64,000 nucleotides of DNA from an uncultured Verrucomicrobiales bacterium (GTDB lineage Bacteria; Verrucomicrobiota; Verrucomicrobiia; Verrucomicrobiales; DEV007): positions 1-64,000 of the forward strand of contig CALAHF010000162.1 of assembly GCA_937891465.1 (NCBI GenBank). Direction: 5' to 3'. Both the position numbers and the translations under genes were made by a program. The notes below the pieces were generated by a model that saw only the letters and a program-made list of their open reading frames with translations, did not search any database and was not told where the DNA came from. Positions 5,553 to 63,091 of this stretch are shown one piece after another (the stretch's first letter is position 1; each line of letters begins with the position of its first letter).

Positions 5553-6303
5553 AATTGTTAGCGCTGTTCTCATGTTCACTCTGGTGATGTCCCAAGTTCG
5601 CGCTCAGGACGAAACGGAAAAACCAGACAAACCGGAAAAAGACTCGGAGGGAATCATTCCAATTTCACCTGTGAAACTTTTTGATGCGCTTCCGGCAAAT
5701 CCGAAGACATGGGAATTGAAACGGTCGATTGGAACTCGCAGCTATTCTGGGTGGGTTGAATCCCGTGTTCAGCGCATTTTCGAAAAGAAAGTCATCGATC
5801 CCAAAAAGCCGGATGAGCCCGAGAAGGTTCTTGTTACGCGTGTTACCATCACGGATACCGGAAAATTCTCTGAGGCCATTGCTGGATTTGATGACTTTAA
5901 GCCGGAAAAACACGAGGATTACGAAAAGGCGTTTATTCAAAAATACCCTGCAGTCATTGTGCCATACGAAGGTGAGGTGGAAGTGACACTGCTTGTAAAA
6001 GGGCGTTTTAAAGTTGAGTATATTTTGGAAAATCAGCCAAAAAAGTATCTGAAGGAATGGATGCGACATACGAAATTCGATGTCCTCACAAAGATTGCTG
6101 ATACCCCAGTGACGGTCCTTCCAGCTGAGATTAATATTCTAAAAATTGACCAACTCAATCCCAAGAAAAATTCAGTCTATCTGCTCGCGACCAGCTCCAA
6201 TAGTCAACAGGCAAAAGACCTTGCTGAAGAAGAAATCCTTCAGAAAAAAATCGACGGTGAAATTCCAGTGTTGCCGGGCGAACTCGATTTCCTCTTAGAG
6301 TAG
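5545..6303 (+). CDS. Exported protein coupled to the Verru_Chthon cassette
   Basis: 252-residue protein of unrecognised family. The chosen ATG at 5545 overlaps the vccA stop (start and stop share ATGAATAA); it gives a clean signal peptide (MNKIVSAVLMFTLVMSQVRA, cleavage expected before QDE). A GTG start at 5521 would add residues that spoil it. The mature protein begins with a charged Glu/Lys/Pro stretch and has no obvious cysteine or membrane segment, so it is probably periplasmic. Tight coupling to vccA argues it acts with the cassette. The gene ends six bases before a palindromic repeat that separates it from the convergent SDR gene. Confidence 0.6.
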   Translation: MNKIVSAVLMFTLVMSQVRAQDETEKPDKPEKDSEGIIPISPVKLFDALPANPKTWELKRSIGTRSYSGWVESRVQRIFEKKVIDPKKPDEPEKVLVTRVTITDTGKFSEAIAGFDDFKPEKHEDYEKAFIQKYPAVIVPYEGEVEVTLLVKGRFKVEYILENQPKKYLKEWMRHTKFDVLTKIADTPVTVLPAEINILKIDQLNPKKNSVYLLATSSNSQQAKDLAEEEILQKKIDGEIPVLPGELDFLLE

Positions 6304-6315
6304 AAAACGGTTCCA

Positions 6316-6358
6316 CGAACGAATAGGGTATGTTCATCGAACATACCCTATTGGTTCG
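6316..6358. repeat. Hairpin-unit repeat, inverted doublet
   Basis: Two 21-bp units at 22-bp pitch (6316-6336 and 6338-6358) in opposite orientation (core TAGGG then CCCTA). Together they make a nearly perfect palindrome with 14-bp inner arms (6322-6335 and 6339-6352) around a three-base loop. It lies between two convergent genes and could end transcription from both sides, though no T-run follows. Confidence 0.9.
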
Positions 6359-10504: not shown

Positions 10505-10525
10505 TGAACGGATAGGGTTGGTTCG
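10505..10525. repeat. Hairpin-unit repeat, single
   Basis: One unit (arms TGAACGGA and TTGGTTCG, core TAGGG), six bases beyond the lpxK stop codon. Confidence 0.8.
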
Positions 10526-15694: not shown

Positions 15695-15791
15695 CGAATC
15701 AATAGGGTCGGTTCATCGAACGAACCCTATTGATTCGAAACGGCTCCACGAACCAACCCTGTTGGATCGTTAGACTAACCCTATTGGATCG
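15695..15791. repeat. Hairpin-unit repeat, four units
   Basis: Units at 15695-15715, 15717-15737, 15749-15769 and 15771-15791, giving pitches of 22, 32 and 22 bp. Cores in order: TAGGG, CCCTA, CCCTG, CCCTA. The 11-bp spacer between the doublets is AAACGGCTCCA. The same layout recurs at 35266-35362. Confidence 0.92.
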
Positions 15792-17775: not shown

Positions 17776-19215
17776 ATGAAGTTATTCGATACCCTGACCC
17801 GAAAGCCCCTTGAATTGAAGCCCCGCGATGGAGACACGTTTCGATTCTACTGCTGTGGACCAACGGTTTATGGCCTCGCTCATATCGGAAATTTTCGGAC
17901 ATTTGTCCTCCAGGATGTCTTTCGGCGGACGCTCGAGTTGTCCGGCCAAAAGTGCCTACACGTGCGCAATTTGACTGATCTCGACGACAAGACGATTCGC
18001 GATTCTCAGGCAAACGGGAAAACGCTCAAAGAATTCACTGATCAGCATCGCGACAAGTTTCACGAAGATTGCGAAGAGCTGAATTTGCTGAAGCCGCATG
18101 TTGAGCCCAGTGCGGTTGAGCACATTCCGCATCAGATCGCGATGATTGAAGATCTCATCAGTAAAGGTCACGCCTACTCTGCAGAGGATGGTTCCGTCTA
18201 TTTCAAAATTAGTTCGTTTGATGGGTACGGCAAACTTTCTCATCTCGATAAACGCGAGCTGCGTTCCGGCGCCAGCGGTGTGACTGATGATGAATACGAC
18301 AAAGAAAGCGCATCCGATTTTGTTCTGTGGAAAGCGCGACGAGACGATGACGGTGAGAATTTCTGGGAAAGTCCTTGGGGGCAGGGCCGTCCCGGCTGGC
18401 ACTTGGAATGCTCGGCAATGAGCCGTGAATATCTCGGTGAAACATTCGATCTTCATTCCGGCGGCGTTGATTTGATTTTCCCGCATCACGAAAACGAAAT
18501 CGCACAGAGCGAAGCGTGCACCGGTTGCACGATGGCGGACCACTGGTTTCACCTGACGCATTTGCTCGTGGATGGGGGTAAAATGTCGAAAAGCGCAAAT
18601 AACTTCTACACGATCGATCAGTTGGCTAAAGCCGGATTCAGTGGGGCTGAGGTTCGCTACGTTTTGATTGCTGCGAATTATCGGCAGCCGCTCAATTTCG
18701 TTGCTAAAGATAAATCAGGAAACGAAACCTTCCCGTCACTTTCCGGGGCGAAACAGGCGCTCGAAAAACTCGCTAAATTTGAAGCGGCCCTTCTTACGAT
18801 CCAACAGGGTACGTTCGACGAATCAATAGGGTTGGTTCGTTTTGTCGGCGCGGAGAAAGCTGGTTCGTTTGGAAAAGCATTCAGTGCGCTATTGAACGAC
18901 TTGAATACTCCTGAGGCGCTCGGGCAGGTTTTTACCGCGATGAAGTCGATCGATCTGGATTCACTTTCTCCCGAGGAAGCGAAAACGGAGTGGCTGGGTT
19001 TTCGTCAGGTGATTGACTCAATTGGTTTGCGACTCCCTGAAATTGCTGAAGTAGACGGCAATGTGCCTGCTGATGTTGCGGCCTTGGCCGAGAAGCGCTG
19101 GCAGGCAAAACAGGACAAAGATTGGGCCGCCTCCGATGCGCTTCGTGATGAAGTTGCGGCTTTGGGATGGGTCATCAAAGACACTGCAGACAGCTACGAA
19201 GTAGTTCCGAAATAG
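17776..19215 (+). CDS. cysS: Cysteine--tRNA ligase
   Basis: 479 residues. Charges tRNA-Cys with cysteine in the cytoplasm. Class I motifs: [14 protein letters not shown] (a zinc-ligand Cys plus the HIGH-type signature), zinc ligands in LECSAM and in [11 protein letters not shown], and KMSKSANN (KMSKS loop). After the catalytic domain come the helical and C-terminal domains. Residues about 341-355 ([15 protein letters not shown]) are encoded by a doublet of the dispersed hairpin repeat at 18797-18839, inserted in frame in the variable linker ahead of the FNTPEAL-like segment (here LNTPEAL). All catalytic motifs are intact, so the enzyme should be functional. Confidence 0.95.
18797..18839. repeat. 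Hairpin-unit repeat doublet inside cysS
   Basis: Units 18797-18817 (core CAGGG) and 18819-18839 (core TAGGG), same orientation, 22-bp pitch, wholly inside the cysS reading frame and translated as [15 protein letters not shown]. In the reading frame used, the first unit carries CAG where the TAGGG variant would give a TAG stop. Confidence 0.9.
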
Positions 19216-24863: not shown

Positions 24864-24938
24864 CGAACTGATAGGGTAGGTTCGCTGAACCAATAGGGTA
24901 CGTGCGAATTGGACTTTCGAACCAACGTCAACGGAATG
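24864..24938. repeat. Hairpin-unit repeat, direct doublet plus degenerate third unit
   Basis: Units 24864-24884 and 24886-24906 (both core TAGGG, same orientation, 22-bp pitch); an 11-bp gap and a decayed unit beginning CGAACCAA at 24918 keep the 32-bp pitch. Confidence 0.8.
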
Positions 24939-31534: not shown

Positions 31535-31555
31535 CGAAGTAACAGGGTTGGTTCG
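31535..31555. repeat. Hairpin-unit repeat, single
   Basis: One unit (core CAGGG) in the divergent region between the yej operon and tdh, 57 bp before the tdh start codon. Confidence 0.8.
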
Positions 31556-33317: not shown

Positions 33318-35258
33318 ATGAGCAAAATGATCAGTCATGGAAAAGACAAAGAAGTCTCGGCGAAAAATATAAAATTCGCCTTGGTGCTGGCCATTATTTG
33401 GGCGGCCATTCTAGGAGGACTTTGGATCGCGATGCGGAATGCCAGCGGAGAGGGTGGTGGCTTCTTGAATTTCGTCGGCCGCCTTCATCCCTTGATTGTC
33501 CACATCCCGATTGGCATTTTGGTCGTCGTGGGAGTGATTGAAATCTTTGGACGGGGCAAAAAAGGCGAGACCGTTCGCGGTTCCGTCCCGATGCTGTTGT
33601 GGTTCAGCTTCCTCGGCGGAATCGGGTCAACCATCATCGGTTATTTGCTTATGCGGAGCGAGGGAATCGCTGGGCTGGCCATGCCGCTTCATATGTGGAC
33701 AGGAATTGCCGTGGTGGTTTTTAATCTTTTGGCGCTCATCACCAAACTTGCTGGAAAAAGCGGTGCTTACGCGCTGTCGCTGTTTTTAGCCATCGCAGCG
33801 GTTGGTGCTGCTGGTCACTACGGTGGCGCACTGGTCCACGGAAAAAATTACCTCACCGAAAACGCGCCGGAGCCGATCAAGAAGGTCCTTGAACCGATTA
33901 TGTTTCTTGGCCTTGGGGGAGTCGAAAATGATGAGATCGACGGCGAAGAAACCGAAACAGAAATCGCGCTCGAGCAACAAGTGGCCTACACCGCTTTTGT
34001 TCAGCCAATTTTGAAGGCGAAATGCACCGAGTGCCACAACGAAGACAAGATTAAAGGCAAGCTGCGAATGGATACGCATGAGTTGCTCCTCGCAGGGGCA
34101 GAGGGGTCTGATTACCCAACGGTAGAGCCGGGCGATGCGGAAAATTCCGAGATGATCGTGCGCGCGACATTGGAGCCAGATGACGATGATTTCATGCCTC
34201 CGGGCGAAAACGATCCGCTCACTCCGGAGGAAATTAAGATTCTCAGTTGGTGGATCGACACCGGAGCATCTGTTGACGAAACCGTCGCCGAACTTGGACA
34301 TGAAGATGAAATTCTCGGAGCACTCGCCGTGATGGATGCGACACGAAAAGGGGCCGAAGTTGAGAAAATTGTTTGGCTTCCCGAGTGGGAAATTCTTTCC
34401 GATGAAGAACGCGAAACCCGCCTCGCCGATGCGCATGTTGCCGCAGATCAGTTCAATTTCTCGCTCATGCCGATTTCCGCCGAAGACAATCGTCTTCGCG
34501 TAAACGTAATCAACGCGTCCAAAGAATTTGGAGACGAGCAGCTGAAAACGCTGGAGCCGATCGCCGAGCACATCCTTTGGCTGGATATCGCCCGAAGCCA
34601 AATCACCGACGAAGGTATGAAAACGGTGAATAAAATGCGGAACCTTGAGCGACTTCACCTCGAGGGCACTAAAATTACAGATTCAGGAATTGCGGAGATC
34701 GAGCCGCTCGAAAACCTGCAGTATTTAAATTTGTATGGCACCGAAATCACGGATGCGTTGTTCACACACCTTCAGGGCATACCGAAATTGCAAAAATTGT
34801 TTGTCTGGCAAACTAAAATCAATCCGGCAACAGCCCGTTCTTTCGAGCGCAGCGTGAATCTGGAAGTGAATACCGGCATTGATCTGGTGGCCGTTGCAGC
34901 CGCGAAAGTAGTAGCTGAAAAAGAAGCAGCAGACAAGGCGGCTGCGGAGAAAGCGGCCGCTGATAAAGTCGCTGCAGATAAGAAGGTGGCAGATGCAAAA
35001 GCCGCTGCTGCGAAAACGGCTGCGGAAGATAAGAAAAAGGCGGACGCGGCCAAGAAAGTCGCTGAAGAAAAAGCCAAGGCTGATGCAGCAGCTAAAATGG
35101 CCGCCGAAAAGAAAGCTGCGGCGAAAGCCATCAAGGACGCGGCTGACAAAGCTGCCGCTGCAAAAAGTTCCGCTGAGGAAAAAGGAACGCCACCCGCCGC
35201 TCCGGCTCCGAAACCAGAGCCGACTGCGGCACCGAAAGAGCAGCCAAAGGCACAATGA
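33318..35258 (+). CDS. DUF2231 / cytochrome c / leucine-rich-repeat fusion protein
   Basis: 646 residues. Residues about 20-175 carry several membrane helices of the DUF2231 type (GRLHPLIVHIPIGILVVVGV is its hallmark). A PVC-type cytochrome c domain follows with heme motif CTECH at 236-240 and GKLRMD and PPGENDPLTPEE segments. Residues about 400-515 form leucine-rich repeats (LERLHLEGTKITDSGIAEI ...). The C-terminus from about 525 is Ala/Lys/Glu-rich low complexity like a TolA linker, ending in a Pro/Ala tail. Heme is expected in the periplasm. Such fusions are typical of Planctomycetes/Verrucomicrobia; role unknown, perhaps electron transfer tied to envelope binding. Confidence 0.85.
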   Translation: MSKMISHGKDKEVSAKNIKFALVLAIIWAAILGGLWIAMRNASGEGGGFLNFVGRLHPLIVHIPIGILVVVGVIEIFGRGKKGETVRGSVPMLLWFSFLGGIGSTIIGYLLMRSEGIAGLAMPLHMWTGIAVVVFNLLALITKLAGKSGAYALSLFLAIAAVGAAGHYGGALVHGKNYLTENAPEPIKKVLEPIMFLGLGGVENDEIDGEETETEIALEQQVAYTAFVQPILKAKCTECHNEDKIKGKLRMDTHELLLAGAEGSDYPTVEPGDAENSEMIVRATLEPDDDDFMPPGENDPLTPEEIKILSWWIDTGASVDETVAELGHEDEILGALAVMDATRKGAEVEKIVWLPEWEILSDEERETRLADAHVAADQFNFSLMPISAEDNRLRVNVINASKEFGDEQLKTLEPIAEHILWLDIARSQITDEGMKTVNKMRNLERLHLEGTKITDSGIAEIEPLENLQYLNLYGTEITDALFTHLQGIPKLQKLFVWQTKINPATARSFERSVNLEVNTGIDLVAVAAAKVVAEKEAADKAAAEKAAADKVAADKKVADAKAAAAKTAAEDKKKADAAKKVAEEKAKADAAAKMAAEKKAAAKAIKDAADKAAAAKSSAEEKGTPPAAPAPKPEPTAAPKEQPKAQ

Positions 35259-35265
35259 TTTCTCG

Positions 35266-35362
35266 CGAACCAACAGGGTGCGTTCGACGAACCAACCCTG
35301 TTGCTTCGAAACACGATTTCGATCGAATAAGGTAAGTTCGATGAACCAACCCTATCAAATCG
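35266..35362. repeat. Hairpin-unit repeat, four units
   Basis: Units at 35266-35286, 35288-35308, 35320-35340 and 35342-35362: pitches 22, 32, 22, identical to the locus at 15695-15791. Cores: CAGGG, CCCTG, TAAGG (diverged), CCCTA. Spacer AAACACGATTT. Starts seven bases after the stop of the cytochrome/LRR gene. Confidence 0.92.
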
Positions 35363-42582: not shown

Positions 42583-42625
42583 CGATCAGATAGGGTTGGT
42601 TCATCGGACCGACCCTGTTTGATTG
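42583..42625. repeat. Hairpin-unit repeat, inverted doublet
   Basis: Units 42583-42603 (TAGGG) and 42605-42625 (CCCTG), 22-bp pitch, between two tandem paralogous genes, 50 bases before the second gene's ATG. Confidence 0.88.
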
Positions 42626-46981: not shown

Positions 46982-47056
46982 CGAGTCAATAGGGTTGGTT
47001 CATCGAACATACCCTATTGGATCGAAAAGCCGTTTCGAACATACCCTGTTGGATCG
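46982..47056. repeat. Hairpin-unit repeat, three units
   Basis: Units 46982-47002, 47004-47024 and 47036-47056 (pitches 22 and 32), cores TAGGG, CCCTA, CCCTG, spacer AAAAGCCGTTT. The array ends six bases before the stop codon of the next minus-strand gene. Confidence 0.92.
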
Positions 47057-49744: not shown

Positions 49745-50080
49745 CAGCTATTGATTCTACAAATCAACAGCAGAAATACCACCTGTCAAAACCCCACCTA
49801 ACCGCGACAATGGTTTTGTTAAAATTCAACGAGTTAACCCTGACGCGATTTGGTAGGGTAGGTTCGAGCGATCAAACCGATTTTGAGGGAAAAATTTTAT
49901 AAAATTATTGTCTTCTTTGTGGCCGATTTTAATCTGAATGGCTGACTGTCAGTTATTTAGCGACCCTTTTTAGGGTGTTTTTTAGGCGAGACAAATGTGT
50001 CTCAAAGTGTTAAACTCTCGAGTCGTTTGAAACGCGGGTGCAAATTTAGGTGAATTTGCCAAACGAAACACACTGTTAAC
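49745..50080. other. Intergenic region with repeat unit and inverted repeats
   Basis: 336-bp divergent gap. It contains one hairpin-repeat unit at 49846-49866, a short hairpin ACCCT/AGGGT (49963-49976) followed by six T, and an inverted repeat GAGACA/TGTCTC (49988-50003). The last two are in the leader of the gene at 50081 and could be regulatory; no clear promoter was identified. Confidence 0.5.
49846..49866. repeat. Hairpin-unit repeat, single
   Basis: One unit with diverged left arm (CGATTTGG) and core TAGGG. Confidence 0.7.
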
Positions 50081-61802: not shown

Positions 61803-63059
61803 ATGGCTCAGACCTTCCAGACCCTCAAAGGATTTCGCGATTTCTTCCCCGAAGATTGCGCAGCACGAAACTATGTTTTCGACACGTGGCGTCGCGTCGC
61901 GAGCCGCTACGGCTTTCAAGAATATGAAGGCCCCATTCTCGAGCCAACTGATTTGTATCGTAAAAAAAGCGGCGACGAGATTGCCGGCCAGCTCTTTTGT
62001 TTTGAAGACAAAGGTAAGCGTGATGTTTCGATGCGCCCCGAGCTGACCCCAACGCTTGCCCGCATGGCTGCCGCTCGTCAGCGTGATTTTAAAAAGCCGC
62101 TCAAGTGGTTTTCAATCGGCCAGTTTTTTCGCTACGAAAAACACCAAAAAGGTCGGGGTCGCGAATTTTATCAGTTCAATTGCGATATTCTGGGTGAAGA
62201 ATCTGTCGCTGCAGACGCCGAGTTAATTGCCCTTTCGATCGACTTGATGCGCGAACTCGGTTTCACTCCCGATGATTTTTCGATTCGTCTCAGTGATCGA
62301 AATGCATGGACAGATTTCGCTGCGTTGAACGGAGTAACGGAAGAAAAGGCCAACGATTTCCTTCAAATTATCGATAAGCTCGAGCGCGAGCGTCCTGAAA
62401 GATCAGATGAATTGCTCGGCGAGCTTGGTCTGTCTCTTCAACAAATTCGCGATTTCATCGCTACTGGCGAAGCTGCCTCTGAGCGGATTGCGGCGATCAA
62501 AGCTGATCTGACTGGCCGTGGACTCGCTGAATTTGTGAAAGTTGATCTCAACATCGTTCGCGGCCTAGCCTACTACACCGGGGCCGTTTTCGAAGTCTTC
62601 GACGTCAGTAAAGGAATGCGTGCCGTCGCGGGTGGTGGTCGATACGATCAGCTCGTAAAACTTATCGGCAACGTCGATATGCCCGCTTGCGGGTTCGCGA
62701 TGGGTGACATGGTCATCACTGATCTCATTCGTGAAACTGCCCACACCAATGAAAAGCTTGAAGCCGCCGTAGGCGAAGCGTCCGCGATTGACGTATTTGT
62801 TGTCGTCGCTGACGAAGAAAAACGGGCGGATGCATTGGGTGTCGTTCAAAAACTCCGCAATGCCGGATTCCGAACCGGTTTGCCGCTGTCACCTGCAAAA
62901 GTCGGCAAGCAATTTCAATCAGCTGAGCAAAGCGGCGCGAAACACGCGGTCATCGTTGGATCAGAATTCCCAACCGTTTCTCTAAAAAATCTGGCCGCTC
63001 GCGAGGGAGAATCCTGCGATGCGGGTGAGTTGGTCGTAAAACTTTCCACGATCCAATAG
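61803..63059 (+). CDS. hisS: Histidine--tRNA ligase
   Basis: 418 residues from the ATG at 61803 (MAQTFQTLKGFRDFFPEDC); a TTG at 61755 is not supported. Class II motif 2 FRYEKHQKGRGREFYQFNCD, histidine-binding segment RGLAYYTGAVFEVFD and motif 3 AGGGRYDQLV are present. The C-terminal anticodon-binding domain is intact. The last residues (KLSTIQ) and the TAG stop come from the first unit of a hairpin-repeat doublet at 63049, so the gene ends in a mobile or degenerate repeat. The lost or altered tail, if any, is beyond the conserved fold. Confidence 0.94.
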   Translation: MAQTFQTLKGFRDFFPEDCAARNYVFDTWRRVASRYGFQEYEGPILEPTDLYRKKSGDEIAGQLFCFEDKGKRDVSMRPELTPTLARMAAARQRDFKKPLKWFSIGQFFRYEKHQKGRGREFYQFNCDILGEESVAADAELIALSIDLMRELGFTPDDFSIRLSDRNAWTDFAALNGVTEEKANDFLQIIDKLERERPERSDELLGELGLSLQQIRDFIATGEAASERIAAIKADLTGRGLAEFVKVDLNIVRGLAYYTGAVFEVFDVSKGMRAVAGGGRYDQLVKLIGNVDMPACGFAMGDMVITDLIRETAHTNEKLEAAVGEASAIDVFVVVADEEKRADALGVVQKLRNAGFRTGLPLSPAKVGKQFQSAEQSGAKHAVIVGSEFPTVSLKNLAAREGESCDAGELVVKLSTIQ

Positions 63060-63091
63060 GGTTGATTCGTCGAACCAACAGGGTTAGATCG
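63049..63091. repeat. Hairpin-unit repeat doublet forming the hisS stop
   Basis: Units 63049-63069 (TAGGG) and 63071-63091 (CAGGG), same orientation, 22-bp pitch. The first core TAGGG supplies the hisS TAG stop at 63057-63059. The rest fills most of the gap to upp. Confidence 0.92.

Follow-up and report, generated by a model that had tools for sequence, protein, structure and literature searches.

A repeat doublet inside cysS of an uncultured Verrucomicrobiales bacterium is probably one station in a family of evenly spaced DNA recognition sites

We find that a repeat doublet inside cysS, the cysteinyl-tRNA synthetase (CysRS) gene of an uncultured Verrucomicrobiales bacterium, is on balance best explained as one of about a thousand double-stranded recognition-site stations, set roughly every 6 kb for a putative oligomeric DNA-binding protein. 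More tentatively, and with somewhat less than even confidence, we suggest that members of a Verrucomicrobiales family mark their chromosomes with a 22-bp-phased, genus-spelled dyad at intervals of about 6 kb; this would be a system for uptake signalling or chromosome marking that lies outside the Pasteurellaceae and Neisseriaceae and has entered core proteins such as CysRS and PanC by substitution, not insertion. If this is true, loops of core enzymes in this lineage have been shaped by a requirement at the level of the DNA, and behind the sites lies an extensive DNA-recognition system that has genus dialects.

Results

The doublet and its protein context

The window, the whole stretch of 64,000 nt that was analysed, is part of contig C162 of a 5.97-Mb draft genome (G000), whose kin are uncultured Verrucomicrobiales. 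An earlier note on this DNA had described a repeat doublet in frame within cysS, in a linker of CysRS, with all catalytic motifs intact. That description holds. The doublet consists of two same-strand 21-nt units (Table 1), translated as T341-R355, and a pattern for the unit, allowing at most two mismatches, has 1519 matches in the genome (770 + 749) and none in a reversed control. Pfam places the catalytic domain (PF01406) at residues 18-310 and CysS_C at 429-472; across the 22 sequences compared HIGN and the Cys/His residues are invariant and KMSKS nearly so, and the motifs are intact in the window. An AlphaFold2 model shows the doublet residues as a loop of low confidence (pLDDT <50 at 348-353), with helices 320-342 and 363-373 on either side. 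Several small gaps make this segment shorter in E. coli CysRS (1li5), and 8qhp is nearly equal in length; the segment holding the doublet is a generally variable, permissive linker.

Table 1. Coordinates of the cysS doublet, the other elements of the window and a transposase remnant elsewhere in the genome
Feature	Position	Strand	Basis and remarks
cysS, cysteinyl-tRNA synthetase, 479 aa	17776..19215	+	Host gene of the doublet; ORF, PF01406 + CysS_C; matches in 54/57 related genomes
Doublet unit 1, CGATCCAACAGGGTACGTTCG, CAG core = Gln	18797..18817	+	PWM score 31.4; unit has orthologues in G001 and in four g12 genomes
Doublet unit 2, CGAATCAATAGGGTTGGTTCG, 22 nt from unit 1	18819..18839	+	PWM score 33.6; unit has orthologues in G001 and in four g12 genomes
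Decayed third unit, CGGAGAAAGCTGGTTCGTTTG	18851..18871	+	32 nt from cysS unit 2; G001 counterpart intact, CGAACGAACAGGGTTCGTTCG
+- doublet, intergenic, behind gene ending at 6303	6316..6358		
Single unit, intergenic	10505..10525	+	PWM
Four-unit element, 22, 32, 22 spacing, intergenic	15695..15791		PWM
++ doublet, intergenic	24864..24906	+	PWM
Single unit, intergenic	31535..31555	+	PWM
Four-unit element, intergenic, behind gene ending at 35258	35266..35362		
+- doublet, intergenic	42583..42625		PWM
Three-unit element, intergenic	46982..47056		PWM
Single unit, weaker (20 bits), intergenic	49846..49866	+	PWM
++ doublet, hisS 3' end	63049..63091	+	Core TAG of first unit = hisS stop codon
L118, broken Y1_Tnp (RAYT-type) transposase gene	G000:C171:2452-2754		Single match found in G000

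Anatomy and spelling of the family

A position-weight matrix (PWM) trained on 464 kb was run over 864 kb, where it returned 139 strong elements (75 doublets, 24 quadruples, 18 triples and 22 singles). Because a pattern seeded the matrix, conservation at the seeded positions is partly by construction, and the covariation test given below leans mainly on unseeded positions. The unit is a 21-bp dyad with symmetric arms and an asymmetric core, CGAWC-NN-A-YAGGG-T-NN-GTTCG in genus g1, to which G000 belongs. Over the 864 kb, units follow one another at exactly 22 nt in 146 cases and at 32 nt in 32, with almost no other value. Orientations in G000 at 22 nt are +- 84, ++ 36, -- 24 and -+ 2, and at 32 nt -+ 14, -- 10 and ++ 8; in G012, of genus g12, 22 nt is the sole recurring spacing (++ 9, +- 9, -+ 8, -- 5). 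A T-rich tract (-2 to -5) and an A-rich tract (-11 to -14) flank the elements, and these outside AT tracts are separated by about one turn of the helix. The 11-nt linker of units spaced by 32 nt is often similar to AAAAGCCGTTT, for example at 15738-15748 and 47025-47035.

By gene calls from in-house codon-usage ORF scoring on draft genomes, 119 of the 139 elements are intergenic, with the nearest upstream stop codon at a median of 15 nt. Outside genes the variable core base is T in 139 units and C in 130. The earlier note had observed that a TAGGG core would place a stop codon in the cysS frame, which the C of the first unit avoids; over the 864 kb, all eight in-gene units read in that sense frame have C, and other frames show both bases. 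The same note had placed the hisS stop codon within a repeat, and indeed the TAG at 63057-63059 is the core of the unit at 63049-63069. The hisS product (61803-63091 region) ends ...STIQ*, with the unit core as its stop; in G001, a genome of the same genus, the element starts 3 nt past the hisS stop. The units listed from G001 mostly have a CAGGG core, as against about half with TAGGG in G000, as if the core spelling of the lineage were shifting. Searching the literature for the motif letters gave unrelated matches only, and there was no Rfam match in the window.

Gap test in genes

The earlier note had also read the doublet as an insertion, for which a repeat-sized gap is expected in relatives. 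The CysRS linker has 39 residues in the window and 37 in three doublet-free g2 genomes; among relatives free of the family it has 38 in G016, 37 in g18, g13 and g4 genomes and 39 in G007. Since the linker of family-free relatives is 37-38 residues long against 39, only 1-2 residues shorter and with no repeat-sized gap, these alignments do not support insertion into cysS.

Nine further in-gene elements were aligned with relatives in the same way, the set having been found partly through one doublet pattern. From their sequences we take the hosts to be PanC, DnaE, a HEAT-like repeat protein (C97a), the N-terminus of a large protein (C18a), a beta-helix-like (L133), an ATP-grasp-like (L126), an AsmA-like (L045) and a hydantoinase-like protein (L035), and a membrane protein (L120). 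Repeat-encoded peptides are found in unrelated proteins (CysRS, PanC, DnaE, HEAT-like, AsmA-like, ATP-grasp-like and others), and the peptide TIQQG[TK]FDESIG[LF]VR occurs also in PanC and a beta-helix-like protein. Linkers with the element differ from those without it by -10 to +6 residues in cysS, panC (39 vs 41-42), C97a (vs g2), L133 (39 vs 40), L126 (46 vs 56), L045 (41 vs 39) and L120 (39 vs 33). The exceptions are dnaE (+19 residues) and C97a compared with G016 (+18), which could be insertions. L035 is too variable for a comparison of lengths, and the C18a element forms an N-terminal extension.

Conservation and genus dialects

A doublet stands at the orthologous place of cysS in G001 and in the g12 genomes G012, G023, G029 and G035 (the G029 copy of unit 2 being weak, just below 12 bits). 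The cysS doublet is thus older than the genus. The match is not an accidental one, a possibility that the earlier note had allowed for. Among the in-gene sites, an element is found at the orthologous place in 8/8 in G001, 13/18 in g12, 1/17 in g2 and 0/9 in g16 and g18 together. Between G000 and G001 the element-bearing genes share 30-47% of their third codon positions, and persistence of the motif in G001 exceeds a neutral simulation at each of the eight in-gene sites (p<=0.001 each); the G001 sites were not picked for having the motif, and in three cases (dnaE, L045 and L126) the second unit in G001 is either weak or cut off. In panC, dnaE, L120 and L126 the orientation of the unit at one site varies across genomes, so that the peptide is changed and the DNA dyad kept, as would be permitted at a dimer site whose core is tolerant.

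The arms around ACAGGGT follow dialects: CGAWC/GTTCG in g1, CGATC/GATCG in G012 and a weak GACC/GGTC in G078 (g2). Where in-gene sites are orthologous, 8 of 11 G012 units carry T..A at arm positions 3 and 17, and 14 of 16 G001 units carry T at arm position 17, so that the dialect tracks the genus at the same loci. Within the genome there is no arm covariation (181 units, 34 direct and 45 inverted doublets); arms vary independently within and between units. A dyad kept between genera without covariation inside a genome is more in line with a recogniser that changes than with a base-paired stem.

Intergenic stations lie behind the same gene in G001 in 3/5 cases (controls 2/4) and in G012/G035 in 1/10 (controls 0/7). 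In these small numbers individual intergenic stations turn over, and their positional conservation is weak. The family is abundant in just part of the bacterial family.

Spacing along the genome

Elements are on average 6.1 kb apart, with a CV of 0.60 over 864 kb (0.47 in the first 464 kb), as against 0.92 for random gene ends and 0.87 for intergenic gaps; none of 3000 null sets was as low as 0.60. G012 has a CV of 0.48 against a uniform null of 0.92 (0/3000). The idea that in-gene elements fill intergenic gaps was tried and rejected, as the span across them (10.7 vs 11.2 kb) is not above average. Elements are missing over the longest distances in G000:C164:11016-37594, the largest gap, which carries EF-Tu, SecE and NusG-like genes, and in C80:171246-192629, with DUF1501-like genes; neither stretch is an obvious foreign island.

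Signs of copying or mobility

Mutual information between variable positions is strong mainly between neighbours and at most weak over distance. Near-identical copies are not in excess of column-shuffled expectation, either among direct doublets (4 observed with at least 38/42 identities, 3.0 expected) or among inverted ones (7 observed, 5.8 expected). We found no target-site duplications at the elements and no GTAG or CGTC terminal tag in the PWM or flanks. Matches to Y1_Tnp are one broken in G000 (Table 1), one partial in G001, a shortfall that may partly reflect assembly incompleteness, and 2-17 in genomes of g12, g2, g16 and g18; an intact cognate RAYT transposase was not found in the incomplete assemblies of G000 or G001.

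Discussion

The sites share one anatomy, are conserved and evenly spaced, follow genus dialects and lack signals of insertion and of copying. We infer that a dimeric or oligomeric protein reads them, because the motif is a dyad, is phased, shows no base-pair covariation and has dialects. Each 21-bp unit would probably be bound by a dimer of this putative protein, and as 22 bp is two helical turns and 32 bp three, the bound dimers would sit on one face of the helix, in stations of one to four units kept about every 6 kb. The cysS site would have been born in place, in a tolerant surface loop, before g1 and g12 split, and has since been upheld at the DNA level while the encoded peptide drifts.

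Alternatively, the repeats could be an untagged mobile palindrome similar to REP/BIME or Rickettsia palindromic elements (RPE), in which a transposase spreads inverted 43-bp pairs, mostly behind genes and some in frame, that then decay with loop flips. The palindromic units, their intergenic excess, the short median distance to the upstream stop codon and the mostly +- pairs would all suit such an origin, and REPs in frame have been described in Rickettsia and in the verrucomicrobium O. terrae, with cases in dnaE and tRNA synthetases of various species (PMC3733652). We nevertheless consider it unlikely: most orthologues have no repeat-sized gaps, arm covariation, long-distance linkage, near-identical copies, target duplications and the GTAG tag are all absent, spacing is even, and the repeat-richest g1 genomes have one broken or partial Y1_Tnp match each while repeat-poor relatives have several, which disfavours a RAYT-driven REP in particular. 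Because in-gene elements can be read across divergent species, the DNA-site and mobile-repeat hypotheses are separable here, unlike with intergenic repeats. An RNA hairpin with a terminator or stabiliser role behind genes, and present in cysS by accident, seems very improbable; +- pairs could fold a long hairpin and sites do lie behind stop codons, but ++ pairs with unpaired cores are common, elements are conserved inside several core genes, the window gave no Rfam match, and we reject this explanation for its lack of covariation and compensatory changes.

The recognition-site reading has two special cases, which we hold about equally likely, each on its own being possible but doubtful. By analogy with DNA-uptake signals (USS/DUS type), a surface receptor may prefer the motif, with transformation enriching and standardising sites in place and giving genus dialects; the gap test, regular spacing, non-coding preference, close inverted pairs, dialects and AT tracts all match USS/DUS traits. 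ComEC is present in all seven genomes checked, which lends weak support, ComEC being near-universal. Against uptake, there is about one station per 6 kb and not per 1 kb, rigid 22/32-bp arrays are unnecessary for it, and both a receptor and competence are hypothetical in these bacteria. The sites may instead organise the chromosome or its topology once per ~6 kb (nucleoid protein, SMC or gyrase loading), in keeping with helically phased dyads and with spacing that stays even despite turnover of single sites, but here the dialect change over about a thousand sites, the lack of a known protein and the abundance in only part of the family count against. Recognition sites of either kind face objections of their own: no candidate binding protein was found, and unless something drives it, an essential DNA-binding protein can hardly switch its specificity in concert at about a thousand sites. 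Stations between genes are subject to turnover, conserved positions are favoured when sites are found from a seed, and the longer linkers of dnaE, and of C97a compared with G016, would suit insertion. The skewed G000 orientation (+- over -+ at 22 nt) looks as if stations began as perfect inverted pairs, and a mobile palindrome would give the same.

Comparison with known systems

The earlier note likened the doublet to RPEs, and the likeness stands for the repeat-derived peptides in unrelated proteins but not for their origin: RPEs are insertions, whereas here most loci lack a repeat-sized gap, the site is ancestral and maintained, and the sequence statistics resemble recognition sites and not hairpins that were copied. 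With REP/BIME and intragenic REPs (GTAG and CGTC families) the family shares short palindromic units and pairs or clusters behind genes, some in frame, and as intragenic REPs have been reported before, O. terrae among the Verrucomicrobia included (PMC3733652), in-frame repeats alone are not new; the differences are the lack of a GTAG/CGTC tag, of an intact RAYT and of arm covariation, the even spacing and, at most loci, the lack of insertion gaps. HIP1 (GCGATCGC) of cyanobacteria is likewise a highly iterated palindrome with intragenic copies, but it is 8 bp long, far denser and linked to methyltransferases (PMC4390886).

As a set, the features match the USS of Pasteurellaceae and the DUS of Neisseriaceae more closely than REPs. 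Shared are many copies, in-place gap-free origin in genes (here 10 genes, with exceptions), even spacing, intergenic preference, close inverted pairs, clade dialects and flanking AT tracts (PMC1626085, PMC1939737, PMC3630211). For USS, Redfield et al. showed by the same gap test that they are not insertions, and reported spacing somewhat more regular than random, a bias towards non-coding DNA, pairs in opposite orientation and two types that go by clade (PMC1626085); DUS have eight dialects, with dyad pairs in Simonsiella (PMC3630211). We do not file the family as USS/DUS, since a 21-bp dyad in rigid 22/32-bp arrays of one to four units differs from their 9-12-bp core, as does the density of one station per 6 kb, in another phylum and with an uptake role that is putative. 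Uptake and chromosome-organisation ideas are still argued for USS/DUS, and the regular spacing seen here offers a direct handle on that debate (PMC1939737).
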